The notes under the pieces: model-generated | What the model was told of the DNA's origin: nothing | What the model saw: the letters and a program-made list of their open reading frames with translations, nothing else | Database searches by the model: none | NCBI GenBank assembly: GCA_902500785.1 | Contig: CABVRW010000005.1 | Coordinates: forward strand, 83,008-116,157 | Source of the DNA: an uncultured Nitrospira sp. | GTDB lineage: Bacteria > Nitrospirota > Nitrospiria > Nitrospirales > Nitrospiraceae | Length of the DNA: 33,150 bases | Reading direction: 5' to 3' | In this document: piece by piece, positions 6,965-29,482 of the stretch | Layout: the number at the start of each line of letters is the position of its first letter | Position numbering within the stretch: position 1 is the stretch's first letter | Made by a program: the position numbers and the translations under genes

Positions 6965-7135
6965 ATGCCGAAGGCACGAACCGCGAAAAACTGTTACCGC
7001 TGCGAAGCGGAAGACCGAATCAAGATGACCTTTATGCTGTGCGGCCTCTGCCATCGGCATTTCTGCAGCGCCCATGGCGTGCCCGATCTCGAACAATGCA
7101 CCAAGTGCCTGGAAGCCAGTGAAGTAACGGAATAG
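6965..7135 (+). CDS. 56-residue zinc-finger protein, AN1-like cysteine spacing
   Basis: Too short for most ORF filters, but it has a strong ribosome binding site (GAGGAG, 6952-6957) eight bases before ATG at 6965. The sequence is built around cysteines and histidines: CYRC (10, 13), CGLC (26, 29), HFC (32, 34), H37, and CTKC (44, 47). The spacing C-x2-C-x12-C-x2-C-x4-C-x2-H resembles the start of AN1-type zinc fingers and other treble-clef or cross-brace fingers that bind two zinc ions. Nothing else is present: no signal peptide and only a nine-residue basic N-terminus. The role is unknown; protein-protein or nucleic-acid binding in the cytoplasm is likely. It lies convergent to the pseudo-AAA gene. 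Confidence 0.7.
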   Translation: MPKARTAKNCYRCEAEDRIKMTFMLCGLCHRHFCSAHGVPDLEQCTKCLEASEVTE

Positions 7136-7321: not shown

Positions 7322-7873
7322 TCAGACCACCTTGCTCCGCTTCTGCTTGATATCCACCATCATGGACACCTGTGCTTGTCGAGACAACGCTTGATCGATC
7401 CGGCTTTTCCCGTCGGTCGTGAGAATGACCAGGCCATTGTGGGCCTCGATACGTTGCAACAGATGGGCCGCCCCGGCATCGGCATAGTGACTCGCGCCGT
7501 CCTTGCCTGCCCCGCGTCTCCCGAACAGCGCGTCCGCCTCGTCAAAGAAAAGGATCGATCCGCTACGTTCCGCCTCATCGAACACCCGGTTAATGTTCTT
7601 CTCGGTTTCGCCGACACGGCGGCTCACCACTGAGGAAAGATTCACCTTCGCCAAATCCAACTGCAGCTCTTCCGCCACCAATTCCGCCGCCTTGTTCCGG
7701 CGAAGCGGGGTGGAACCGGACAGCACCACGACCGCCACGGTCGGCCGCTTGGCGCGAGGCGTCTTTGCGCGGCGTGCCGGAGCCGCACTTTTCGTCCCTG
7801 ACCTGTTCACGGCGTTCTTCGTAGCCTTCTTCCCGACCACGCTCGTACGCCGCGTCACCCGATTTCCAGCCAT
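7322..7873 (-). CDS. Degenerate AAA-family protein with intact Walker B but lost P-loop (paralogue 1)
   Basis: A 183-residue protein. ATG at 7873 follows a strong GAGAGGAAGG site. Residues 1-45 are a basic, disordered tail (many Lys, Arg, Ala, Thr). The rest matches the core of small AAA ATPases: LSGSTPLRRNKAAELVAEEL (51-70) sits where the Walker A P-loop should be, but the GxxGxGKT glycines, lysine and threonine are gone; RRVGETEKNINRVFDEAE (85-102) and Walker B ILFFDEADALFG (107-118) are intact; sensor 1 Asn is replaced in LTTDGKSRID (151-160). The arginine-finger helix and the small lid domain are missing: typical family members continue for 60-100 residues. It should not hydrolyse ATP normally. 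It follows the SF2 helicase gene by 81 bases. A close paralogue is at 28907-29482. Confidence 0.8.
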   Translation of the reverse strand: MAGNRVTRRTSVVGKKATKNAVNRSGTKSAAPARRAKTPRAKRPTVAVVVLSGSTPLRRNKAAELVAEELQLDLAKVNLSSVVSRRVGETEKNINRVFDEAERSGSILFFDEADALFGRRGAGKDGASHYADAGAAHLLQRIEAHNGLVILTTDGKSRIDQALSRQAQVSMMVDIKQKRSKVV

Positions 7874-7954
7874 TGTTGCCTTCCTCTCATCTTGAGATGC
7901 GTCTTGATCACGCGCCCACTGATCGGGCATGCCTTCTTTTTCACATGTCGGGGG

Positions 7955-9532
7955 TCAACGCTTTTGATCGAAGCCCACATCTCGCCATTTCTCCAACAGG
8001 GCAATCCGTCGCTCCAGTTGGGGGATCGTCGCCTGGTCGACTCGACCACCCGTTCGCTTGATCAATTCCGCATTAAGCTGCCGATGGTCGATACCGCACT
8101 TCCGCGCCACCGCCCCGACGAGGGTGCGATGTCTGTCCCGCAGGGTATTTTTCTGGTCATGCAGCGCCGCCGCCGGCTCCGGATGGCCCTTCCCTTCGAC
8201 GGCCGGATCGCCCTCGTCCGCGCCGATCAAGGCGTCGAGTCTGGCCACGCCATTGAGGGGAATATACTCTTTCAGCGAGGTGGCCGCCGTACCGAACAGC
8301 GTCCGCTGCACGGCCGGCATGATCTCTTCGAGCACATGGTCGCGCTCGACCTTGATGCGCTTGGCGTAATGCACCAAGGTGGCATCCTTCGGCAGGTAGA
8401 GCCAGGCCCGTTGCGGTTTCGGCACGTTCTCCTGCATCCGCACAAAGCGCCCGACGACCTGGCGAAAATACATCTCCGTCAACACATTGGTCGCATACAC
8501 GCCGACCCGGAGGCGCGGGATATCGACGCCTTCGCTCACCATATTCACCGCCACCAGCCATTGCTGCGACTTGTGACGGGCGAACGTTTCGATGGTCTTC
8601 GACGCGGATGGATCGTCGGACACCGCGACGTGCGCGCGCGCGCCCGTGATCTTCAGAACCAGGTCCGCCACCTGCCGCGCATGGTCCTGGTTCATGGTCA
8701 CGATCAACCCGCCCGCGTCCGCCTGTTCCTGCTTCCGCAACCGCTGCAGCTCGGCATGGGCATCGTTCAATACCGGGCCCAGCCAGCTCTCCTGCAGCAA
8801 GGCGGTCTTGAGCCGCTCCCTCTGGCGCTCGAAGGTCAACCCGTCTTCAAAGGTGGCCCGATGCTCACGCCCATCCGACAACCAGGTCAGTTCCCCTTCA
8901 TAGCTCGGGAACAGAATCGGCCGGCAGACTCCGTCTCGGATCGAATGCGAATACCCGTAGGTGAAATCAGCCTGGCTTTCGCCCTGCTCGTATCGCACAT
9001 AGGGAATCGGGTTGTTGTCCGAGCGGAAGGGCGTGCCGGACAGCGCAAGACGAAACACCGCTTCCCCGAAAGATTCCCGTAACGCCTTGCCCCAATCCTT
9101 TCCATCTCCGGCATGGTGCAACTCGTCGAGAATGACCAGAGTCTTCCGATTGCGGCAGGCTCGGCGGAACACCTCCGGCGCCAGGCATACTTGCTGATAG
9201 GTCACCACCGCGCCATGATAATCCCGCGCCTCGCAGGCTTGCTCATTTGAGAGCGCCGGATCGAGCTGAATACCGACCTGACCGGCCGCCGATGCCCATT
9301 GCGTCCGCAAGTGATTCGTCGGACAGATCACGAGGACGCGGCCGGCGGCCCGGTCGGCAAGATACTGATGGGCGATTCGGAGCGCAAAGCGAGTTTTTCC
9401 CGCAGCCGGCGTCGCCGTGACCAGATAGTCCTCGCGCTTCTGCGCCAGCACATCGGCCACCGCCCGAGTCTGCCAGTCCCGCAACAAGACCTTCCAAGGC
9501 AAGAGGCTCACGCCCATCTCATCACCGTGCAT
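7955..9532 (-). CDS. Superfamily 2 DEAD/DEAH-type helicase
   Basis: A 525-residue SF2 helicase. Visible motifs: Walker A ATPAAGKT (40-47), motif Ia VICPTNHLRTQW (68-79), DELH (136-139), motif III SGTPFR (165-170), motif V VNMVSEGVDIPR (329-340) and motif VI QVVGRFVR (358-365). The layout resembles the XPB/RadD-like DNA helicases and not the DEAD-box RNA helicases. After the two RecA domains a 140-residue C-terminal extension ends in a helical stretch (HRQLNAELIKRTGGRVDQATIPQLERRIALLEKWRD), perhaps for partner or DNA binding. ATG at 9532 is used; its GGAG is too close, so ATG at 9517 is possible, and the upstream frame soon meets a stop. It heads a probable two-gene unit with the degenerate AAA gene. 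Role in repair or defence is inference. Confidence 0.88.
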   Translation of the reverse strand: MHGDEMGVSLLPWKVLLRDWQTRAVADVLAQKREDYLVTATPAAGKTRFALRIAHQYLADRAAGRVLVICPTNHLRTQWASAAGQVGIQLDPALSNEQACEARDYHGAVVTYQQVCLAPEVFRRACRNRKTLVILDELHHAGDGKDWGKALRESFGEAVFRLALSGTPFRSDNNPIPYVRYEQGESQADFTYGYSHSIRDGVCRPILFPSYEGELTWLSDGREHRATFEDGLTFERQRERLKTALLQESWLGPVLNDAHAELQRLRKQEQADAGGLIVTMNQDHARQVADLVLKITGARAHVAVSDDPSASKTIETFARHKSQQWLVAVNMVSEGVDIPRLRVGVYATNVLTEMYFRQVVGRFVRMQENVPKPQRAWLYLPKDATLVHYAKRIKVERDHVLEEIMPAVQRTLFGTAATSLKEYIPLNGVARLDALIGADEGDPAVEGKGHPEPAAALHDQKNTLRDRHRTLVGAVARKCGIDHRQLNAELIKRTGGRVDQATIPQLERRIALLEKWRDVGFDQKR

Positions 9533-16474: not shown

Positions 16475-16839
16475 ATCGTGGTCTCCTCTGTATTGTTGAT
16501 ATACCTCTCTTTGAGACATTGGGGCAGCTAGGGATCTCCCTGGAGTGGGAGCGGGAGGTGAGCCGCGACGACTCTTCCAGTTGCCGCATGGCGACCATCT
16601 TGCCGCCTCCGTGGGAACAGACTTTCGTCATCGGGAACATCTGCTGCCGGCGGCCCTGCAGTCCCTTCCCATCCGCTCCTTGAACTCTTCCCGATGGGTA
16701 TGCCCAGGCGTTGTCCATACAGGTGAGGCCTACTGTGTCCTGTCGCCCCCCACAGCACAACTAGAGACAGGCCTAGTAGCCGACGAAAGACGATCTGCTG
16801 TATGTTCCAGGTGTTGTGGTATGTTTTCACCGCTTGCCT
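16475..16839. other. Intergenic stretch between divergent genes
   Basis: A minus-strand frame (16528-16845) begins with a stretch that could pass for a signal peptide (FRRLLGLSLVVLWGATG), but then becomes Arg/Pro-rich without pattern and has no ribosome binding site. A decayed small exported-protein gene is possible. Promoters for both flanking genes must lie here; none is clear. Confidence 0.35.
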
Positions 16840-17634
16840 ATGCATCTACGGAGTTCACTCCATTTTCATGCTTTCAGGGTCTGCGTTCAAGCCGCGACCC
16901 TGGCTTTTTTCGGTCTCAATGCTGTCGCGTCTGCGGTCGCGGCCTCCCCTCTCGACCATCGCTTCTCACTGGAATTTGAAACCGGGGCCGTTTGGCAATC
17001 ACGCAACCAAATCCACATACCGGATAGTTCCGCAGGAACCCGTTTCAGCCTGACCGATATCCAAGACAACGGTCCCGAAGTGCAGCGGCGCGTCGAACTC
17101 ACCTGGAATGTGAGTCACCGGCATTCGCTTCGATTTGTCTATGCCCCGCTCGCTTTCTCCGGTAGCGGCCCCTTCGCGATGCCGGTGCGCTTTGCCGGCA
17201 GCTCATTTGCCCCGAACAGTCCGGTGGATTCCGATTATCGTTTCGATTCCTATCGGCTGACTTATCGCTATCTACTCCACGACGCGGACCGCTTGCGCTG
17301 GCGCATCGGCGCGACGGCATTTATCCGAGATGCCAAAGTGGAGTTGCGTCAGCAAGGTGTCACGGCCTCCGATAGCAATGTGGGATTCGTGCCCTTGCTG
17401 AGCACCAGCCTGGAATATGATCTTGCGCCGCGTTGGACCGCGCTGCTGGATTTCGACGGTTTGGTCAGCACTCAGGGACGGGCCATCGATGCGGCGGTGA
17501 AGATTCGGTACGATCTCAGCAATGCTTGGTATATGACAGCGGGCTATCGCGTCTTCGAGGGCGGTGTGGACAATGATACCTATGCCTTCGGTTGGTACAA
17601 TTTCGCCCTCGTTTCCTTAGGAGTTCGATTCTAG
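16840..17634 (+). CDS. Outer-membrane beta-barrel protein
   Basis: A 264-residue exported protein. The N-terminus (FRVCVQAATLAFFGLNAVASAVA) is a signal peptide with probable cleavage near residue 34, before SPLDHRFS. The mature part is built of alternating strands: FSLEFETGAVWQSR, RVELTWNVSHRHSLRFVYAPL, YRFDSYRLTYRYLL, LRWRIGATAFIRDAKVEL, FVPLLSTSLEYDL, AVKIRYDLSNAWYMTAGYRVFEGG and the closing ALVSLGVRF with terminal Phe. Roughly ten to twelve strands are expected. No family name can be given. The start is uncertain: ATG at 16840 gives the best signal peptide but lacks a ribosome binding site; GTG at 16816 adds eight residues in frame. Confidence 0.75.
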   Translation: MHLRSSLHFHAFRVCVQAATLAFFGLNAVASAVAASPLDHRFSLEFETGAVWQSRNQIHIPDSSAGTRFSLTDIQDNGPEVQRRVELTWNVSHRHSLRFVYAPLAFSGSGPFAMPVRFAGSSFAPNSPVDSDYRFDSYRLTYRYLLHDADRLRWRIGATAFIRDAKVELRQQGVTASDSNVGFVPLLSTSLEYDLAPRWTALLDFDGLVSTQGRAIDAAVKIRYDLSNAWYMTAGYRVFEGGVDNDTYAFGWYNFALVSLGVRF

Positions 17635-17672
17635 CGGCCGCCGGTCGCGGTCTCCTGCCGCACCTCCTCACG

Positions 17673-18098
17673 TCATGGCATCCCCCGTGGTCGTGGTCCC
17701 TCTTTTGGATCTGTACGAACAGGCGGTGGCGCAGGGCGCCTGGTGTACCAGGCAGCCCAGGCGATCAGTGCCCCTTGAAGCGGCAACCGGAGCCACAGGC
17801 CAAAGGGCGAGGCCCAAGGGTATTGGTCCGGATGCAGCGCCATATGGAGGTTGGCGGGAAACACCGCAATGAGAAGCGCAATCAACCCCCACGCCGCCAC
17901 CGAGGACCAGCGTTCCAGCATCAACAATGCCCCCAACCCTATCTCAGCGAACCCGCTGATATAGACGAGTTCACGATGCCACGGCAGATAGGGCGGCATG
18001 ATGCCGACATACAATTCAGTCTGAACGAAATGGTTGACGCCGGCAACGATAAACAGCGCCCCATAGGTGTAACGAAGCACCGGTTTGGCTCGACACAT
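17673..18098 (-). CDS. DoxX-like four-helix membrane protein
   Basis: A 141-residue inner-membrane protein with four hydrophobic segments at about 10-22, 43-61, 66-82 and 101-118. The motif NHFVQTELYVGIMPPYLPWHRELVYISGFAEIGLG is typical of the DoxX-like branch found in many bacteria. The family is linked in places to thiosulfate-quinone oxidoreductase or oxidative-stress functions, but most members, like this one, have no established role. ATG at 18098 follows GGAAG; an extension to 18203 is Arg-rich and unsupported. The C-terminal 20 residues are Pro/Arg-rich and cytoplasmic. It lies downstream of the large kinase on the same strand, 218 bases away, and convergent with the barrel gene. Confidence 0.82.
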   Translation of the reverse strand: MCRAKPVLRYTYGALFIVAGVNHFVQTELYVGIMPPYLPWHRELVYISGFAEIGLGALLMLERWSSVAAWGLIALLIAVFPANLHMALHPDQYPWASPFGLWLRLPLQGALIAWAAWYTRRPAPPPVRTDPKEGPRPRGMP

Positions 18099-18316
18099 TG
18101 CTGGCTTCCGCCTTCGGCGCCTGGTTCCTCCTGCCTTCCATTCGACTTGAGAAAAGAGCCGATCCAAGTCCCCAGACAGCCACGTCCTCCAATTTAATCC
18201 CATCGCACCTTATGAGGATCGTGCGTCCATTGCACGGACGTGGTCATGAAAATCAGCTGATCCTGCGGGAAACCTTGCGCGCGGACTCTGTCACGCAGTC
18301 CTCACTCGCCGGAGCC

Positions 18317-21300
18317 TCATTCGCGAACGACCCGGACTGCCGCTTCGATCGCTTTGCATAACTCGTCCGCGGCACTCTCTTTGGTAAGATACCCGACGGC
18401 GCCGGCAGCGATCAGCTGCTGCGCCACATCCGACGAACGATGAACCGACAGGCCGATGATGGCGATCTCCGGATGGCGCTCCTTGATCCGCCTCGTGGCC
18501 TCGATGCCGTCGAGCTGCGGCATGTTGACATCCATCACGATCACCTCCGGCGCGAGGCGGCCCGCAAGCTGGATGGCCTCTACTCCGTTACTGGCCTCGC
18601 CCACGACATTCAGATGGTCATACCCGGTCACGATACTGCGCAGGCCCTGTCGAAGCATGACATGATCGTCGACCAACAACACCCGAATCGGGCGTCCTGG
18701 TTGAGGCGATAGACGCGGCACAGGAGCGGGCCGGCTCGGGCGTCTGTCAACCCCGGCGGCAACCTGCGGTCCATCTCGCTGCTGCAGCGGCAAGGTCAAT
18801 CTCGCCGTCGTGCCTTTCCCAGGCGCCGACTCGATTTCGAATGCTCCGTCCAGCGCTTTCATCCGTTCACGGATGCTGAAAAGGCCGAATTTTGACGAGG
18901 CCGGCGCCGGACGATCGACGGCAGCCGCGTCGAACCCCCGTCCTTCGTCGCGCACCTCGAGTTGTAGAAATTCGTCCTCATACCAGAGGGTCACCGCCGC
19001 CTCTGTGGTCTCGGCATGTTTGGTGATGTTGATCAATAGTTCTCTCACCGATTGAAACAATAAGACCGCCCGATCTTCCGTAATCGGCCATTCTGTGGCA
19101 TCCGGCGTGCGCACAGCCACGGTCAAATGGTACCGCTCCATCTGGCTGGGCAACCAGCGCAACGCAGCGGCAAGACCAAACTCCCGCAATATGGGCGGAC
19201 TCAGTCCGGCTACCAGCGTACGCGTATAAGCGAGCGCATCATCGAGCACGCCTTCGGTGTCCTTGATGAAGTCGGCACAGGGTCGGACCACCCCTTCAAC
19301 ACGCTTCGCCTGTCCGAGCTTCAGCCGTCCGAGCACGAGCAGTTGCGCCAGATGGTCGTGTAATTCAGTGGCCAGTTTGGTTCGCTCGCGGTGTTCCGTG
19401 AGGTTCAGCTCCGTCGCAAGTTCCCGGAGTCGACCTTGCGAAAGCAGCAATTCGTCCGTCCTCGCCTCCACCAGTCGTTCCAATTGACCGGCGAAGGATC
19501 GGAGTTGCTCTTCGCTGTCGCGCAAGGCTGCCTCGGCGCGCCGACGCTTGATCCATTGGGCGATGGTGTCGGCGATGGGCGCGAGTTCATTGAAGGCGGT
19601 GTCGGAAAGGGCGCGGCGGGCGAACAGCGCCATCACGCCGAGCACGCCGCCTTCGAGCAGCATCGGATAGCCGGCGAACGCGACCATGCCTTCTCGTTCG
19701 GCCCATGACCGGTCGCTGATATTCGGGTCGCGAACCAGGTCATTCGTCATCAACGACCGGCCGGTTTGCGCGATGCGACCGATCTCCAACTCGCCCACCT
19801 TCACGCGCCCATGCGATCCGTCCAGGCGCGTATTCATGCCGGCGCTGCCCTGCATGTCCAACACCTGCTCCGTCTCGTCGAGTGTCCAGATCCGCGCGAA
19901 GGCCAGATCGAGATGTTGCACCAGGATCTCGCAACAGCGCTGCAGCACCGCGGGAATCGAACGCTCCACGCCGACCAGCACGGCGTTCAGGTCCGCCCGC
20001 AGGACGGTGAATCGCCCTCGCTCACGGAGTGATTCTTCGGCCCGCTTCCGGTCGGTCAGGTCTTGCATCGCGCCGATCATGCTCGTACATCGCCCCTGGT
20101 CGTCGCGGATCGCATAGCCCCGGTCGAACACGTCCGCATAGGAGCCGTCTGCGCGGCGAAAACGGTACGCATCGCGCCATAACGTGTCATCACTGTGAAT
20201 GACCGCGTCGGCGCCGGCCACGACGCGCGCGCGATCATCGGGATGAATGTGCCCATGCCACCACTCGATATCCGAGCCGACTTGGTCGGCCATATAGCCG
20301 AACAGCGTTTGCACCCCCTCGTTCCACCAGAGCGAGTTCGCGGCGAGATCCCAGCTCCAAATCGCATCGTTGGTGGCGCGCGCAGCGATCTGGAATCGTT
20401 GCTCGCTTTCGCGCAACGCCACTTCCGCCTGTTTACGTTCAGTGATGTCGATCGCCACGCCGAAATGCCGCACGGCTTCACCGGCGGCGTCGTATTCCGC
20501 TCGAGCCCGGTTGGCGATCCATCGCACCGTCCCATCCGGCCGAACAATACGGAATTCGTACACGAATTCCTGCCGCTCTCGAACCGTCGCTTCGAAATGT
20601 CGCCACATGCCCGCTCGGTCGTCGGGGTGGACCAGCGCGGTGAAGGCGTCACGTGTCGGCGTAAACCGGCGTCGATCGACGCCGAATACAGCAAAGATCT
20701 CCTCCGACCACCAGAGCTTATCCTGCGTCAAGTCGAAATCGTAGACGCCCATTTGACCGGCCTTCAGCGCGAGAGACAACCGTTCACGTTCAAGGCGAAG
20801 CGCCGCCTCAGTCCTGCTCCGCTCCGTAATGTCGGACCCGGTCGGGGCGAGGAACAAGACCCGCCCAGCCTCGTCCTTGACCGGAACAATGATCATATCG
20901 GCGATCCGCTCGGTCCCGTCGGCCAGAAAGTATGGGTATTCTTGCCGAAAGAACCGGCCTTTGGCCGCCTGTCGAACCCCCTCTTGGACCATATTCATCA
21001 CGCCCAGAGACCGATTCCACCAGCCACAATCCCAAAATTTCTTACCGATGACTTCCTCTCGGCTAAACCCGCAGCCTTCCAGTGACAGGTGGTTCGTCTC
21101 GACCACCGTTCCGTCCGGCGTCAGGACCGCGGCAAAGTATGATCCTTGATCAAAAAATGCTCTGAATTTGGCATTGGCTTCGGCGGCGGCCAATGCATCC
21201 GTGGCCGCACGACGCTGCCATTCTTCGGCCCGTTTGCGTTCCGACACGTCGATGCACGATCCGATAAACCCGAGAAATTGCTCCCGTTCGCTGAGAAACG

Positions 21301-23887
21301 GCGTCGCGGCATCGATGTGCCAGTAATAATTTCCATCGTGGCACTTGAGCCGATACTCCAGCCTGAATGCCTCACGCCGGCGGTTCGCTTCGAGGAACAG
21401 CTCGGCGCTCGGCCCCCTGTCATCCGGATGGACTGCCTCCAACCATCCGAATCCCAAGCCCGTCCCGGGAGTTTGTCCGGTAAACTCGTACCAAGATTTG
21501 CTGAGGAAGGTGCAGGCTCCGTCCTGATCCGTCACCCACACCATGACCGGCGCATGGTCCGCCATGCGACGAAACCGCTGCTCGCTCTCACGGATCGCCT
21601 CGGCTGCGTCACGACGGATGAGCGCCATGTTCACATGGGCATCCACCCGTGCCAGCAATTCTCGCGCAGTGAAAGGCTTGATGAGATAGTCGTCCGCCCC
21701 CTGCTCCAGACCCTGCACTTGAGATTCCTCTCCGGCTCGGGCGGAGAGCATAATGACCGGGATCGTTTTGCTGTCGGGATTGGCCCGCACTTCGCGCAAC
21801 AGACCAAATCCATCCAGATTCGGCATCATCACATCGGTCACGATCAAGTCCGGTCGTTGCCTCCGAATGGCCTGCAAGGCAGCTTTACCGTCCGGGACCG
21901 TTTCGACCTGATACCGTTCAGCCAGCAAGCGGGCGATATAGTGGCGGACATCGGCATTGTCGTCGGCGACGAGGATGCGGGGCGCGCTGGACTCCCCTTC
22001 CGCTCCCTCAGCCAGAGCCGGCTCCGACGGCTGCTGCGACGTCGATTCAAAGTCGTGACCAAGACCATCCTCACCCTCCGGCAACCATCGCAAGGCTTCT
22101 TCGACAAAGGGCCCAGCACCCAACGCCGTCGAGACTCCGTTTCGATCCAGACCGATACGATCCGACGGCACATGGGCCGTTCCTATCGGAACCGTGACGA
22201 TAAAGGTGCTGCCTCCGCCCATGCGACTGTCGACCTGGATGGAACCGCCGTGCAGTTTGACCAGTTCCTGCACCAAGGCCAACCCGATGCCGCTCCCTTC
22301 GTGCGTGCGACTGCGCGCCTGAGAGATGCGATGGAACCGTTCGAACAGGCGAGGAAGACCCTCGGGAGGAATACCGATGCCCGTATCGCGGACGCGTAGT
22401 TCGGCGTGCTGACCGACCTGCTGCACCGTCACTGAAATGTCGCCGTCGAAGGTAAATTTGAACGCGTTGGAGAGAAGATTGAGCACAATCTTTTCCCACA
22501 TGTCGCGATCGACAGAGACGGGCTCCGGCAGGGGTCGGCAATCCACCAGCAGACGCAGCCCGGCCCGCTCGATCGCGGACCGGAACAGGCCGGCCAGTTC
22601 GGCGGTCAATGACGCAAGGTCTGTCGGCACAAAGGAGGCCTGCATCCGCCCGGCTTCCATGCGGGAGAAGTCCAGCAGAGTATTGACTAGGCGCAGCAGG
22701 CGCAGGCCATTGCGATTCACGAGTTCCAACTGGTCTTTCGTCGCGGGGGACAGGTCCGTGGCCCCCCTGGCCAGGAGATCTTCCACCGGACCAAGCATCA
22801 GTGTGAGCGGGGTGCGGAATTCGTGGCTCACATTGGTAAAAAATATGGTCTTGGCGCGATCGATCTCGGCCAGGGCCTCGACACGCCGCTTCTCCTCGTC
22901 ATAGGCGCGCGCGTTCGACAGGCCGGTGAGGATACGGTCGGCCACCATGGTGAGAAAGTCGCAGTAATCATCGTCAAAGGGACGGCGGCCGCTGATGCCC
23001 GCGATCAAAAACCCATAGGCGCTGCTGCCGGGCCTCGCAAGGGGGAGCACGAGCGCCGACTGCGATGAACCCTGTATCGGCATCTCCTCAAGCAGGACTG
23101 GTTTGTCCTCCGACGCCACTCGGGACAGCGACCAGAGGACGTCCTCTCCTGCCGATAGATCGATCGTGAACGGAGCATGCGCGCCTCCGGCCTCCATGCG
23201 TAACGCACCGGCCAGATGAGCCCTGGTATGGTCTGAGTCGGCCCGATAGAGGAGGGCGAAGGGAATATCGTGACGATTGTCCGTGAGTGTCTCGATCAGG
23301 CGCTTCCACGTCTCCTGTTCGCTGCGGATGGTCGCCGCGCAGGCGGCCAGGTCCCGCAGGGTGCGCAGACGACGCTCCCCGAGCACATTGCCTGTGGTTT
23401 CCGTCACGGCGCAGAACACGCCGCCCACGCCCCCGCTCTCATTGCGAATCGGACTATAGGAGAACGTAAAATAGCATTCTTCGGAAAAGCCTCGCCGCTC
23501 CAGGAAGAGGAGTTGGTTCTCGGACCAGGTGGCCTCTCCTCGCAAGAGAACCCCCTCCAGCATGGGGCCGATGATGTGCCAAATCTCCGGCCAGCAGGCG
23601 CGGGCTGCCTGGCCCATGGATTGGGGATGTTTGTCGCCTAGGATCGGCCGATAGGCATCGTTGTAGATCTTGATGAAATCCGGCCCCCACCAGATAAGGA
23701 TCGGGAACCGTGAATTGAGGCAGGTACTCACGGATGTGCGGAGCGACTGTGGCCAGGTCTGCACTGACCCCAAGGCGGTCTCGGACCAGTCTATTGAGCG
23801 CACGAGTGCGCCCATCTCACCGCCTCCGGCCAACCACCCATCCGCCGCCGAGGCAGCAGTCGTCAGATCGGCATCACCGAATTCCAC
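18317..23887 (-). CDS. Giant sensor protein: two histidine kinases and two receiver domains in one chain
   Basis: An 1856-residue protein, counted from GTG at 23887, chosen because a perfect AGGAGG (23893-23898) stands five bases before it; the frame stays open to 24112 with another ATG at 23950. Order: PAS-like (25-170), GAF (180-325), HisKA with His355 in SHEFRTP, HATPase with N-box (Asn474) and GSGIGLALV (531-539), receiver 1 with Asp685 and Lys737, four PAS domains (about 765-885, 900-1025, 1030-1153, 1160-1283), GAF (1300-1450), HisKA_3 with His1510 in ELHDHLAQ, a second HATPase (Asn1620, DEGRGFD near 1650), and a NarL-type receiver 2 with Asp1786 and Lys1836. The NarL-type receiver ends the protein without its usual DNA-binding domain. 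No membrane segments, so a cytoplasmic sensor. Outputs are unknown. All phosphorylation residues are intact. Confidence 0.93.
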   Translation of the reverse strand: MEFGDADLTTAASAADGWLAGGGEMGALVRSIDWSETALGSVQTWPQSLRTSVSTCLNSRFPILIWWGPDFIKIYNDAYRPILGDKHPQSMGQAARACWPEIWHIIGPMLEGVLLRGEATWSENQLLFLERRGFSEECYFTFSYSPIRNESGGVGGVFCAVTETTGNVLGERRLRTLRDLAACAATIRSEQETWKRLIETLTDNRHDIPFALLYRADSDHTRAHLAGALRMEAGGAHAPFTIDLSAGEDVLWSLSRVASEDKPVLLEEMPIQGSSQSALVLPLARPGSSAYGFLIAGISGRRPFDDDYCDFLTMVADRILTGLSNARAYDEEKRRVEALAEIDRAKTIFFTNVSHEFRTPLTLMLGPVEDLLARGATDLSPATKDQLELVNRNGLRLLRLVNTLLDFSRMEAGRMQASFVPTDLASLTAELAGLFRSAIERAGLRLLVDCRPLPEPVSVDRDMWEKIVLNLLSNAFKFTFDGDISVTVQQVGQHAELRVRDTGIGIPPEGLPRLFERFHRISQARSRTHEGSGIGLALVQELVKLHGGSIQVDSRMGGGSTFIVTVPIGTAHVPSDRIGLDRNGVSTALGAGPFVEEALRWLPEGEDGLGHDFESTSQQPSEPALAEGAEGESSAPRILVADDNADVRHYIARLLAERYQVETVPDGKAALQAIRRQRPDLIVTDVMMPNLDGFGLLREVRANPDSKTIPVIMLSARAGEESQVQGLEQGADDYLIKPFTARELLARVDAHVNMALIRRDAAEAIRESEQRFRRMADHAPVMVWVTDQDGACTFLSKSWYEFTGQTPGTGLGFGWLEAVHPDDRGPSAELFLEANRRREAFRLEYRLKCHDGNYYWHIDAATPFLSEREQFLGFIGSCIDVSERKRAEEWQRRAATDALAAAEANAKFRAFFDQGSYFAAVLTPDGTVVETNHLSLEGCGFSREEVIGKKFWDCGWWNRSLGVMNMVQEGVRQAAKGRFFRQEYPYFLADGTERIADMIIVPVKDEAGRVLFLAPTGSDITERSRTEAALRLERERLSLALKAGQMGVYDFDLTQDKLWWSEEIFAVFGVDRRRFTPTRDAFTALVHPDDRAGMWRHFEATVRERQEFVYEFRIVRPDGTVRWIANRARAEYDAAGEAVRHFGVAIDITERKQAEVALRESEQRFQIAARATNDAIWSWDLAANSLWWNEGVQTLFGYMADQVGSDIEWWHGHIHPDDRARVVAGADAVIHSDDTLWRDAYRFRRADGSYADVFDRGYAIRDDQGRCTSMIGAMQDLTDRKRAEESLRERGRFTVLRADLNAVLVGVERSIPAVLQRCCEILVQHLDLAFARIWTLDETEQVLDMQGSAGMNTRLDGSHGRVKVGELEIGRIAQTGRSLMTNDLVRDPNISDRSWAEREGMVAFAGYPMLLEGGVLGVMALFARRALSDTAFNELAPIADTIAQWIKRRRAEAALRDSEEQLRSFAGQLERLVEARTDELLLSQGRLRELATELNLTEHRERTKLATELHDHLAQLLVLGRLKLGQAKRVEGVVRPCADFIKDTEGVLDDALAYTRTLVAGLSPPILREFGLAAALRWLPSQMERYHLTVAVRTPDATEWPITEDRAVLLFQSVRELLINITKHAETTEAAVTLWYEDEFLQLEVRDEGRGFDAAAVDRPAPASSKFGLFSIRERMKALDGAFEIESAPGKGTTARLTLPLQQRDGPQVAAGVDRRPSRPAPVPRLSPQPGRPIRVLLVDDHVMLRQGLRSIVTGYDHLNVVGEASNGVEAIQLAGRLAPEVIVMDVNMPQLDGIEATRRIKERHPEIAIIGLSVHRSSDVAQQLIAAGAVGYLTKESAADELCKAIEAAVRVVRE

Positions 23888-23892
23888 AACAG

Positions 23893-23898
23893 CCTCCT
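23893..23898 (-). promoter_or_regulatory. Ribosome binding site fixing the kinase start
   Basis: AGGAGG on the minus strand, five bases before GTG at 23887. The alternative upstream ATG at 23950 has no comparable site. Confidence 0.65.
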
Positions 23899-24010
23899 GT
23901 TTTCGGCCACACGATTGTAGTGGAAAGAGATTCCAGGGTCGATCCTCCATCGTTCGTCTATGAGAATTGGACGAGACATAAGAGTATAGCTGAACCGGCA
24001 CAGGCTGATC

Positions 24011-24028
24011 GCTAGGGGAATCCCTAGC
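24011..24028. repeat. Inverted repeat in kinase upstream region
   Basis: Seven-base arms GCTAGGG and CCCTAGC separated by GAAT, just upstream of the minus-strand TATACT element. It may be a regulator site; there is no T tract for a terminator. Confidence 0.4.
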
Positions 24029-24228
24029 CCTCGTTCTCTGGCACCTCACGCACGCGTACGGTTCGCCATTGAACGGAGCACACCATCGATCGGGCTCATG
24101 GACAGCCGGCACCTAGGGCTATGCCCAGCATCACTGGTCGCAGCAGTGAGGCATCGTAATGATTTTATTTCTCTCTACTTTCTCGCTTCACGAAATTGTA
24201 GGATGCTTGTGGTGGGTGGAAACAAGAC

Positions 24229-24855
24229 ATGTGGAGTCATTTGACGCGTGCAACTCGAGGGATGATGAAATCACAACAATTACGTTATGGATGGAGCTAC
24301 GTATTGGCCTCCTGCCTGGTCTTGTGGCTGGGCACCGGGTGCGGACCACAGATACGGGCGGAAGGAACTCATCAGCTGACTCCCCCTCCGGGCACACTCG
24401 TGACAGTCTGGGGTGACAACCAGATCGTGGTGAAGGCCGCCTCCATGTGGCTCAAGATGCGCGGGCTGGAAGTAGTCGATCCCTCGCAGGTACAGGCCGC
24501 CCTGCAGGCTGGGACCAAATCGGTCGTTCACGTGCCCGGGGAGGCTGAACTCCTTCACATCGCCGACAACCTCGGCGTCGAACAGTTGGTCTTGGTCGGC
24601 CTGTCCGGAGACCTACGGGCGCCGGCTATCTTCGTGCGGGGGTTGGAGGTCAAGTCCCGTCGCATGTCATGGATTGGAAGCGCTCGGTATGAGGAGTATG
24701 TGACGACCCCAATCTCGAACCACATTATCATCGCGACCTGTCGGGCGCTGGCGGCCGCCTGGGACAAGCCGAACACTACCTCGGACACGCACTGTGCGGC
24801 AGAAGGTACGAGAGCGGATCCAACGGATCAGCAGGGGGAGAGGATCAAGCCATGA
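24229..24855 (+). CDS. Exported lipoprotein, first gene of a lipoprotein operon
   Basis: A 208-residue protein with a signal peptide (YGWSYVLASCLVLWLGTGC) ending in a lipoprotein-type Cys at residue 38, although position -3 is Gly instead of Leu. The mature domain (about 50-175) begins PPPGTLVTVWGDNQIVVKAASMWLKMRGLEVVDPSQVQAAL and continues AELLHIADNLGVEQLVLVGLSGD and an AIFVRGLEVKSRRM strand, an alpha/beta pattern reminiscent of periplasmic nucleotide-free domains that sense or assemble envelope components; no family can be named. ATG at 24229 follows GGAAA at eight bases; ATG at 24262 or 24265 is also possible. The stop overlaps the next start by four bases (ATGA), so the two are translationally coupled. 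Confidence 0.72.
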   Translation: MWSHLTRATRGMMKSQQLRYGWSYVLASCLVLWLGTGCGPQIRAEGTHQLTPPPGTLVTVWGDNQIVVKAASMWLKMRGLEVVDPSQVQAALQAGTKSVVHVPGEAELLHIADNLGVEQLVLVGLSGDLRAPAIFVRGLEVKSRRMSWIGSARYEEYVTTPISNHIIIATCRALAAAWDKPNTTSDTHCAAEGTRADPTDQQGERIKP

Positions 24856-25457
24856 GGCGAGGACGGCATGCGAACACAAGGTGGGCGTGGGCCGTCCTGC
24901 TCGTGATGGCGGGACCCATGGCCATGGGCTGCAGCACCATGCAGGATCGCACCAATTCTCCGATGACCTCGGTGGAACAATTGCTCCTATCGCAAGCCGT
25001 TGAGCGAGGTCTGTCGAACCTGAGTCTCCCGCTCTCGCCGGGCACTCCCGTATCGATGAAGGCCTTCGGATATACTCCGGACAAGGACTTTGCGCATCGG
25101 CAGGTTGAGAGTTGGTTCCTCGCCCACGGGTACCCGGTCGTCGGGGCCAAGGGCGCAGCGGTCACGGTCCGCATCTTGATCCATGCCTTGGGAACCGAAC
25201 ATGGCGAGTCGTTTTTCGGAGTTCCAGCCATCAACAGTGGCTTAATCCCCATTGCGCTGCCTGAATTAGCCCTCTACCGAGAAGCCAGCCAGCGAGGAGT
25301 GGCCCGTTATGAATTGGAACTGGCGGATTCGGAAACAGGCGCTCTGCTCTATCGCTCGCGGCTTTGCGAGGGTACGGTCTATTTGAATCAATACACCGTT
25401 CTTCTGTGGTTTACCTTTCAGCGGACCGACCTCCTGCCACCACCGACTCCGTTGTGA
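24852..25457 (+). CDS. Exported lipoprotein, second gene of the operon
   Basis: A 201-residue protein with a basic N-terminus, hydrophobic stretch (WAWAVLLVMAGPMAMG) and a probable lipid-modified Cys27. The mature part has a helix (MTSVEQLLLSQAVERGLSNL), a strand-helix unit (DKDFAHRQVESWFLAHGYPVV), and paired strands (AVTVRILIHALGTEHG and VARYELELADSETGALLYRS), a fold plausible for envelope-anchored assembly proteins. It is not recognised as a known family. Its ATG overlaps the TGA of the upstream lipoprotein gene, a strong sign of shared expression and probably a shared complex. Confidence 0.78.
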   Translation: MRRGRHANTRWAWAVLLVMAGPMAMGCSTMQDRTNSPMTSVEQLLLSQAVERGLSNLSLPLSPGTPVSMKAFGYTPDKDFAHRQVESWFLAHGYPVVGAKGAAVTVRILIHALGTEHGESFFGVPAINSGLIPIALPELALYREASQRGVARYELELADSETGALLYRSRLCEGTVYLNQYTVLLWFTFQRTDLLPPPTPL

Positions 25458-25512
25458 TGTACAGCGGGCAGGAATAGGCGCGTGAGCAAATGATCTTACG
25501 CGGAGGGGGACA

Positions 25513-25980
25513 ATGACCTGTGAGCGCGGAAGACTGATCTGCCTGTTTCTCGGATCGATCTTCGCCTGGGCCCTGTTTGTGCCGACACAGAGCCGGTCGC
25601 AACCTCAGTCACGGACCATCACAGTACACGCCCCCGGATACCCGACCGGACAGGTTCTGGCTCCCTGGTCCGATCGATGGCTGGAAGAGATCCACCTCGG
25701 TGAGTCTCTACACGTCGGGATTGTACTCGCGAACGATGAGCCGCTTTCCTACGGCTACCGAGAGCGAACCAGGGACGTGGAGAGAGACCGGAGTTCAGGC
25801 CGGTCGAGAACCGCGCGTGGTGACGACCCTAACCGGACCACCATCAGAGGTGGCTCCCGGTTTCGCCCTCTAGATGCGGACGACGATCAAGACGATTCGG
25901 CGCCCACGGGCCGGAGTGGGAAAGAGGATGACGCTGAAGAGGCTGGTGAGACAGACCAGGATAGTTCGGAGAAGAAGTAA
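25513..25980 (+). CDS. Small exported protein with long acidic tail
   Basis: A 155-residue protein with a ribosome binding site GGAGGGG right before ATG at 25513. Residues 1-30 are a signal peptide (LICLFLGSIFAWALFVP, cleavage near SRS/Q). A short structured middle (TITVHAPGYPTGQVLAPWSDRWLEEIHLGESLHVGIVLAND) is followed by a 70-residue disordered tail, first Arg-rich (YRERTRDVERDRSSGRSRTA) then strongly acidic with many Asp, Glu and Ser. No family is recognised. It follows the lipoprotein pair by 55 bases and is probably in the same transcript. Confidence 0.68.
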   Translation: MTCERGRLICLFLGSIFAWALFVPTQSRSQPQSRTITVHAPGYPTGQVLAPWSDRWLEEIHLGESLHVGIVLANDEPLSYGYRERTRDVERDRSSGRSRTARGDDPNRTTIRGGSRFRPLDADDDQDDSAPTGRSGKEDDAEEAGETDQDSSEKK

Positions 25981-27954: not shown

Positions 27955-28302
27955 TCAGGGACGACTTCCGTTCTTTGCGTCGGCTACCAGGTGCGAAATG
28001 ATCAGGCTGGCATCGCTGATCGGATCGCTGGTGAAGGGCGCCTCATGCCGTCTGGTCACGGCGGTCGTCAATCGCTCCGCCGCCTGCCTGACGGACAATG
28101 GAAAGGCCGCATGTCGATGAATTCGACGCAGATGATCCACCGCATCCCCACCCCACAACGGTTGCGCCAAGCTCGCCAGCCATGCGTCGGCAGCCAGAGC
28201 CACCGCCCGTCGCGCGCAAACCCTCGCCTTGCCTTCGTTGCCGCCTTTCCAGGCCTCCGCTGCGACAGCAAGTTCTCGATCGATCGTGGTGCCATGAGAC
28301 AT
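27955..28302 (-). CDS. Hypothetical helical protein, possibly HEPN-like
   Basis: A 115-residue protein, mostly helical, starting at ATG 28302 (MSHGTTIDRELAVAAEAW). The helix KGGNEGKARVCARRAVALAADAWL and the later RRIHRH, which fits an R-x4-H spacing, recall the HEPN superfamily of helical nucleotide-binding or RNase domains, but the match is weak. The end (PFTSDPISDASLIISHLVADAK) is a further helix. No family is named. The ribosome binding site is weak. Its 5' end faces the GIY-YIG nuclease gene divergently, 178 bases apart. Confidence 0.6.
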   Translation of the reverse strand: MSHGTTIDRELAVAAEAWKGGNEGKARVCARRAVALAADAWLASLAQPLWGGDAVDHLRRIHRHAAFPLSVRQAAERLTTAVTRRHEAPFTSDPISDASLIISHLVADAKNGSRP

Positions 28303-28480
28303 GGCCGGGTACGCTACGCGGCTGAAGCCCACGCTGTCAATGAAGGCAGCGTTGAGCGAACCAGCATGCACCACCGTCGAACACGTCGTGCCACATCCAC
28401 ACCATTGTTTCCCTTCATTGGCTTTCGTTATCATCGCCTGCCGCCAGGGCGATCAGACCTGAACACCCACGCAGGAACCC

Positions 28481-28906: not shown

Positions 28907-29482
28907 TCACTTCTTTTTCACGACCTTCTTCTTGAGTTTGGATACGGTCTTGACGGGAGGCTTGGCTTTGGCTGTAGCCGTTTTCTTCGCGGCTCCACCC
29001 AGCACGATCACCGGCTTCTCGGGCGAGAACGCTTCCTCAATGCGACTCTTTCCGCTGGTCGTGAGGATGACGAGGCCCTGGTGTTTTTCGATGCACTGGA
29101 GGAGATGAGATACCTCGGTATTCGCATACCGATCGTGAGCATCATGCACCTGGGTGCGTTTGCCGAACAACGCGTCTGCCTCGTCAAAAAGAAGGATCGA
29201 CCCGTGACGGTTGGCCATGTCGAACACGCGATTCACATTTTTTTCGGTTTCGCCGACATGTTTGCTCACGACCGCCGACAGATCCACGCTGGCCAAGTGT
29301 AATTGCAGTTCTTCGGCCAGCACCTCCGCCGCCTTTTGCCGGCGAAACGCCGTGGCCCCGGACAGCACGATGACGGCGCCGGACGGCGCCTGGGCACGAG
29401 CCCTCTTGGGCGTTCTCACGGACGTCGTCTTTTTCTGCTGCGGAGCGTTCTTTCCTCGCCGAGTGACTGTTCCACCTGCCAT
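28907..29482 (-). CDS. Degenerate AAA-family protein with intact Walker B but lost P-loop (paralogue 2)
   Basis: A 191-residue close paralogue of the protein at 7322-7873, starting at ATG 29482 behind GAAGG. The P-loop position reads LSGATAFRRQKAAEVLAEEL (40-59) with no glycine-rich loop, lysine or threonine of Walker A. KHVGETEKNVNRVFDMAN (74-91) and Walker B ILLFDEADALFGKR (96-109) are intact, as is a HDRYANTEVSHLLQ stretch (116-129) typical of AAA ATPases of the family that includes the contractile-injection ATPases. Sensor 1 Asn is absent (LTTSGKSRIEEAFS) and the arginine finger and lid domain are lacking. Basic tails lie at both ends: residues 1-35, and 163-191 with AAKKTATAKAKPP and KLKKKVVKKK, which could bind DNA. 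Confidence 0.8.
   Translation of the reverse strand: MAGGTVTRRGKNAPQQKKTTSVRTPKRARAQAPSGAVIVLSGATAFRRQKAAEVLAEELQLHLASVDLSAVVSKHVGETEKNVNRVFDMANRHGSILLFDEADALFGKRTQVHDAHDRYANTEVSHLLQCIEKHQGLVILTTSGKSRIEEAFSPEKPVIVLGGAAKKTATAKAKPPVKTVSKLKKKVVKKK

Follow-up and report, generated by a model that had tools for sequence, protein, structure and literature searches.

Two lid-less AAA proteins with a replaced Walker A loop are conserved in Nitrospira and related to the ATPases of contractile injection systems

The 33,150-nucleotide stretch of Nitrospira DNA analysed here, referred to as the window, contains two paralogous genes encoding small AAA-type proteins, which we name copy A and copy B (Table 1). 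The two proteins share 56% identity over 171 aa (E 4e-60). In profile searches they matched the Pfam AAA family (PF00004) with 58 and 61 bits against a cut-off of 21.2, and no other Pfam domain scored above cut-off in either of them. In both cases the alignment to the profile leaves out the P-loop and begins only at position 14-15 of the profile. Outside the AAA core these proteins of ~183-191 aa consist of basic tails alone, and they have neither an N domain nor a first AAA domain. The ATG proposed as the start of copy A is preceded by a conserved purine-rich ribosome site just upstream. Rfam and tRNA scans of the window gave no matches, and no sigma-70-type promoter was recognised in a scan near copy B, a result that carries little weight.

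Table 1. Genes and sequence features of the window that bear on copies A and B
Feature	Position	Strand	Evidence or remark
Copy B, 191-aa lid-less pseudo-AAA protein	28907-29482	-	ORF, Pfam AAA match, orthologues, dN/dS
Copy A, paralogous pseudo-AAA protein	7322-7930	-	likely true start ATG near 7873, ~183 aa
Basic N-terminal tail of copy B, residues 1-34, net +9	29381-29482	-	charge kept, sequence diverges
Basic C-terminal tail of copy B, residues 162-191, net +12, in the lid's place	28910-28999	-	pLDDT <50
Replaced Walker A of copy B, residues 42-53 (G-A-T-A-F-R-R-Q-K-A-A-E)	29324-29359	-	compared column by column with full-length eCIS-type AAA
Replaced Walker A of copy A (G-S-T-P-L-R-R-N-K-A-A-E)	7682-7717	-	column table; dN/dS 0.031
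Walker B block of copy B (LLFDEADALFG, residues 97-107), intact	29162-29194	-	column table; dN/dS 0.02
RadD/ResIII-type SF2 helicase directly upstream of copy A	7955-9532	-	Pfam ResIII/DEAD
Conserved protein, ~115 aa core, GKARVCARRAVA motif, beside copy B and the sister-genus copy	27955-28434	-	42/42 genomes

The first-pass annotation had described the two copies as sharing a replaced P-loop and the same truncation. Both observations hold: the Walker A position is occupied by LSGATAFRRQKAAE in copy B and by LSGSTPLRRNKAAE in copy A, and both proteins end before the C-terminal helical lid, which is absent together with sensor 2. The arginine-finger pair is also lost (PE in B, RQ or KQ in A). 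The loop that stands at the old Walker A follows the consensus G-[SA]-T-x-L-R-R-[NQR]-K-A-A-E, and GxxGxGK[TS] is absent from A and B. We tabulated the motif columns for 57 sequences, comprising A, B, the copies of two genomes that have an A-type gene only (G021 and G022) and those of the sister genus (g17). All 57 of them have Arg for the Walker A lysine; 56 have Arg for the Gly before it, and 56 have Lys directly behind the Thr position. The inner glycines have become P/A/V and R, and the group to which a sequence belongs can be told from its residue at the Thr position (N for A, Q for B and R for g17). The RRxKAAE motif, whose conservation had been proposed as a check, is thus nearly invariant (second R in 57/57), at a dN/dS of ~0.03.

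The GETEKN and DEADALFG blocks had been called intact as well. This is correct for copy B; the DEAD block, however, is not a fixed trait of the family, because 16 of the 19 copy-A orthologues read DGAD. In these the Walker B Glu is replaced by Gly, and the window's copy A is among the 3/19 that keep it. The DE pair is present in 25/25 B and 11/11 g17 copies and in the window's copy A; the Walker B Asp is invariant, and the sensor-1 Asn is kept in most sequences. The pore-loop tyrosine is kept in g17, is His in most B and is Arg or Gln in most A. Judged by established AAA chemistry, hydrolysis of ATP by this site appears unlikely. The conserved Walker B Asp, accompanied in B by the Glu, and the sensor-1 Asn leave room for nucleotide binding, which could still take place weakly.

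To survey the family within the window's genus we used the 24 genomes that were at least 90% complete and at most 5% contaminated. Copy A was present in 21 of them and copy B likewise in 21, with both found in 19. Neither copy is present in G004; copy A is missing from G013, and also from G009, where its place falls at a contig end. In genomes where a single contig carries both, A and B have the same orientation and lie 11-24 kb apart within a conserved region. The larger distance in the window is due to a 9-kb block (16816-25980) with a 1931-aa ORF (18317-24112) and small neighbours, which, of the genus loci compared, only those of the window's genome and of G023, its closest relative, contain. 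In the sister genus, which belongs to the same family, 23 genomes carry one copy apiece. Three more genera each have a single, diverged gene, and there are diverged relatives in other parts of Nitrospirota, so that the further family members expected by the first-pass annotation do exist.

In the phylogenetic tree, A, B and the sister-genus copies form one clade in which the replaced loop was already present (support 100/96 for A, 100/99 for B, 100/100 for A together with G021/G022 and 98/96 for g17). The losses in A and B therefore reflect shared ancestry, and the earlier view that they arose independently in the two copies has to be abandoned in favour of one ancestral loss before the A/B split. 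Diverged members of the family have Arg instead of the Walker A lysine while two out of three still have the Thr, which suggests an early date for the K to R change. Searches of phage and plasmid collections returned only AAA relatives with partial coverage, none of them covering 80% of the query.

Ratios of dN/dS were calculated from NG86 counts for pairs with dS 0.05-1. The cores gave 0.088 (B) and 0.089 (A), so that neither paralogue shows the value near one that would be expected of genes free of constraint. The old P-loop, with 0.036 (B, residues 36-53) and 0.031 (A), is among the lowest parts of the protein, and the Walker B block gave 0.02-0.04. Values for neighbouring genes ranged from 0.04 (helicases and pyrophosphatase) to 0.20 (a SnoaL-like gene). 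The N-terminal tail gave 0.43-0.57, the upper value being that of copy B. Reading frames are open in every genome except one fragmented assembly. Locus L047 (G020), from a very fragmented assembly of 1030 contigs, has copy B in two overlapping frames, which is likely an assembly error and is the one interrupted B frame observed.

The net charge of the N-terminal tail of copy B is +8 to +12 in 25/25 orthologues, and lies between +8 and +15 in every A and B protein; that of the B C-terminal tail is about +11. Conservation of charge while the sequence diverges fits a disordered tail that binds a polyanion, and this polyanion may be nucleic acid. A first structure model based on 15 close sequences had a pLDDT of 49.8. 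A second AlphaFold2 model, for which 26 intact AAA sequences from viral contigs were added, had an overall pLDDT of 62, with moderate values of ~75-85 in the core and tails without confidence. The modelled core superposes on the AAA domains of p97/Cdc48 with Z ~14 and an rmsd of 2.6 across 126-133 residues, a match to be read in the light of an alignment seeded with intact AAA sequences, which will have steered the fold of the model. Helix 1 begins at residue 45 in the model, within the former P-loop. The proposal that a new basic surface was formed at the old P-loop is compatible with the conserved R47, R48 and K50; further positive charge comes from the strongly basic tails.

The RadD-like helicase adjoins copy A in every genus locus examined. 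The start of copy A lies 80-83 nt after the helicase stop codon in 18/21 loci and 57 nt after it in G021 and G022; locus L061 has the usual spacing by alignment. Genes for a DEAD-box RNA helicase and an inorganic pyrophosphatase are also located upstream of copy A, and other neighbours of the pseudo-AAA genes include GIY-YIG. The conserved arrangement indicates that the RadD-like helicase is a probable operon partner of copy A. An obligatory pairing was considered and rejected, because G004 and G013 keep the helicase without copy A, no remnant of which was found beside the helicase in these two genomes, and A-like genes without the helicase also exist. Convergent with copy A, a gene at 6965-7135 (+) of the window encodes a 56-aa cysteine-rich protein (MPKARTAKNCYRCEAEDRIKMTFMLCGLCHRHFCSAHGVPDLEQCTKCLEASEVTE) that probably binds zinc; across the genus loci, including two genomes without copy A, it shows 76-95% nucleotide identity and a clear three-base periodicity.

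The 115-aa protein lies near copy B or the g17 copy in 42/42 genomes that have both genes on one contig, with gaps of 141-1367 nt, and its orientation relative to the pseudo-AAA gene differs between the two genera. This shared neighbour suggests that copy B is the positional counterpart of the g17 copy. Profile searches with the 115-aa protein gave no Pfam match. Its all-helical look is reminiscent of HEPN-like proteins, an identity that no profile supports. In some genomes the protein is fused in frame to the following gluconokinase-like gene (~300-aa frames).

A third, full-length relative of A and B (643 aa) is encoded on contig 13 of the same genome. In N. defluvii the orthologous protein (L088:4993-6924) combines a winged-helix domain with an AAA domain at the C-terminus, and its gene is flanked by Pvc16_N and eCIS_core genes, which identifies it as the ATPase of an extracellular contractile injection system (eCIS). 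The small proteins are 55-60% identical to the last AAA domain of eCIS ATPases; for the proteins of 643-674 aa the value is 57-60%, over ~120 aa of the core. The GETEKN, FDEADALFGKR and DRYAN blocks are common to them and to these ATPases of the Pvc15/Afp15 type. They differ from Pvc15/Afp15 in having no N domain, first AAA domain, Walker A, arginine fingers or lid; moreover, their genes lie outside the eCIS locus and also occur where the genome has no eCIS. In Photorhabdus, cargo is stabilised by the second AAA domain of Pvc15 on its own, even when the catalytic Glu of this domain is mutated (PMC11495950); the literature thus hints that a core of this type can serve a purpose without hydrolysing ATP. 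The first AAA domain of Pvc15 resembles A and B in that its Walker A Lys is changed to Arg, with presumed loss of hydrolysis and retention of the fold (PMC11495950); it is, however, part of a multidomain ring protein, whereas A and B are free-standing small proteins.

Stand-alone lid-less cores of the same type (167-248 aa) were also found in two other Nitrospirota families (L100-L105 and L095-L099). Their Walker A may be intact (GTGKT), slightly changed (GAGRT, GKGQT, GTGKK, GTGKM, GTGEA and GKRKT) or gone (SDDLKT and PRQKEKLE). The f34 members have a common N-terminal IPRIVIYGSxGFEELIRRF-like motif and are mostly acidic to neutral, in contrast to the basic Nitrospira proteins; one of them combines an intact Walker A with a changed Walker B (YFEEAD). 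A single origin of all small cores is neither shown nor rejected by the topology test (p-AU 0.37 for one clade). As the f34 clade contains members with intact loops as well as members with eroded ones, the sequences indicate that erosion of the loop must have occurred more than once. Comparison of neighbourhoods revealed no partner gene conserved across all Nitrospirota small cores.

The explanation that we favour, and hold with moderate confidence, is that A and B are a domesticated, non-hydrolysing AAA core that serves as an ATP-independent binding or adaptor module with basic anchoring tails. As can be read from the sequences, the alpha/beta core of the last AAA domain of an eCIS-type ATPase became a separate protein that lacks the remaining domains as well as arginine fingers and lid, and its phosphate loop was replaced, before A and B separated, by the fixed consensus given above. 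Lacking the K, the T, the arginine fingers and the lid, the proteins most likely no longer hydrolyse ATP or form a working ring. A protein or anionic partner may then be held by the rigid core, of which the Arg-Arg-Lys patch at the former phosphate site is a part, and the lysine/arginine-rich tails would attach the core to nucleic acid or another polyanion. Judged by gene order, copy A probably acts in connection with the RadD-like helicase encoded beside it, and copy B in connection with its 115-aa neighbour. The strict preservation by selection makes a binding job that does not burn ATP probable. Several points speak against this explanation: the retained Walker B and sensor-1 residues leave room for nucleotide binding, the comparably eroded Staphylococcus aureus protein PcdA still hydrolyses NTP weakly (PMC10602043), the helicase partnership is not obligatory, and the modelled core has only moderate confidence and comes from an alignment seeded with intact AAA sequences.

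PcdA is the closest precedent for A and B, being an AAA domain from another system that lost its lid and most of Walker A, is conserved in a lineage and was put to a new use (PMC10602043). The Nitrospira proteins share with it the eroded Walker A, the lost lid and lineage-wide conservation under selection. It differs in its McrB origin, its two EVE domains, its weak NTPase and its one arginine finger (PMC10602043), whereas A and B consist of core and basic tails only, always have Arg for the Walker A lysine, and have eCIS-type AAA domains, not McrB, as their closest relatives. By analogy with PcdA, A and B might be a nucleotide switch with residual activity, whose site binds and perhaps slowly hydrolyses nucleotide and thereby controls self-assembly or partner binding. 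We regard this as rather unlikely. The invariant Walker B Asp, the Glu kept in B and g17, the mostly kept sensor-1 Asn and the low dN/dS of the Walker B block (0.02-0.04) are in agreement with it, as is the fact that PcdA, with a degenerate Walker A and no lid, has a weak NTPase that is needed for its function (PMC10602043). However, the phosphate-gripping K, T and inner glycines are all replaced in A and B, neither arginine fingers nor lid remain, and the Walker B Glu is gone as well from most copy-A orthologues, while PcdA retains a Walker A remnant lysine besides its arginine finger (PMC10602043).

It is improbable, to a greater degree, that the proteins have a non-enzymatic role unrelated to nucleic acid, in which the tails bind polyphosphate or an acidic protein, or the protein acts as holdase for one client. 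Tails selected for charge over sequence fit any polyanion, copy A lies downstream of the inorganic pyrophosphatase and RNA helicase genes, and the second AAA domain of Pvc15 chaperones its cargo independently of the catalytic Glu (PMC11495950). Against such a role, no client or partner is conserved across all lineages, and the acidic to neutral cores of another Nitrospirota family indicate that small AAA cores do not as a rule have basic tails.

That A and B are dead subunits entering the hexamer of the genome's own full-length eCIS ATPase, to regulate or poison it, seems highly improbable. They are 57-60% identical to the last AAA domain of that ATPase, and in most of the genus the small proteins and the full-length ATPase occur in the same genome. 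Nevertheless, Pvc16_N is present in 2/23 and absent from 21/23 g17 carriers, most of which are without the full-length ATPase; G015, G017 and G028, which are 99-100% complete, carry both A and B and have neither of these markers. The same co-occurrence data led us to reject any dependence of A and B on an eCIS. Furthermore, their genes are not near the eCIS locus, and the pore-loop tyrosine is lost in A and most B. Finally, although the genes are shorter than those of full-length AAA proteins, have lost the catalytic motifs and can be lost themselves (A and B in G004, A in G013), the idea that they are remnants on their way out can be dismissed, and the functional family proposed by the first-pass annotation upheld, since dN/dS is 0.09 in the core and 0.03 across the replaced P-loop, the new motif is conserved, frames are open, ribosome site and spacing are conserved, and orthologues are syntenic across the genus.

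AAA-derived pseudo-enzymes are known mostly as subunits of larger rings, and the conserved unknown genes of nitrite oxidisers have been little studied. In Nitrospira the smallest possible unit, a single core lacking the lid, persists as a free protein in two orthologous groups. This also ties the ATPase of contractile injection systems to a function inside nitrite-oxidising cells. The emptied ATP site is among the most conserved parts of A and B, which makes it a testable claim that a nucleotide pocket was turned into something else. More tentatively, Nitrospirota may have repeatedly made free-standing proteins from the contractile-injection AAA core, with loops lost in parallel; in Nitrospira the emptied site would have become an Arg-Arg-Lys ATP-independent binding site and the basic tails a nucleic-acid anchor, giving a new class of AAA-derived adaptor that the main nitrite oxidisers retain in two orthologous copies. 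The small cores of the phylum, with a loop at all stages of erosion, are natural intermediates with which to test which step removed the use of ATP.

No description of the A/B family was found among papers with open full text. The best NCBIfam profile for both copies is that of the anti-phage ATPase IteA (NF042959), which they match through the AAA core with 45 and 53 bits. These scores are far under the cut-off of 510 bits, the matches span only between a quarter and a third of the profile, and A and B differ from IteA in being without the active-site motifs. A 123-aa AAA fragment (L086:4914-5285 (+), G034), which is without the whole P-loop half, is related to a different AAA subfamily (L094) and looks like a separate truncation or remnant.
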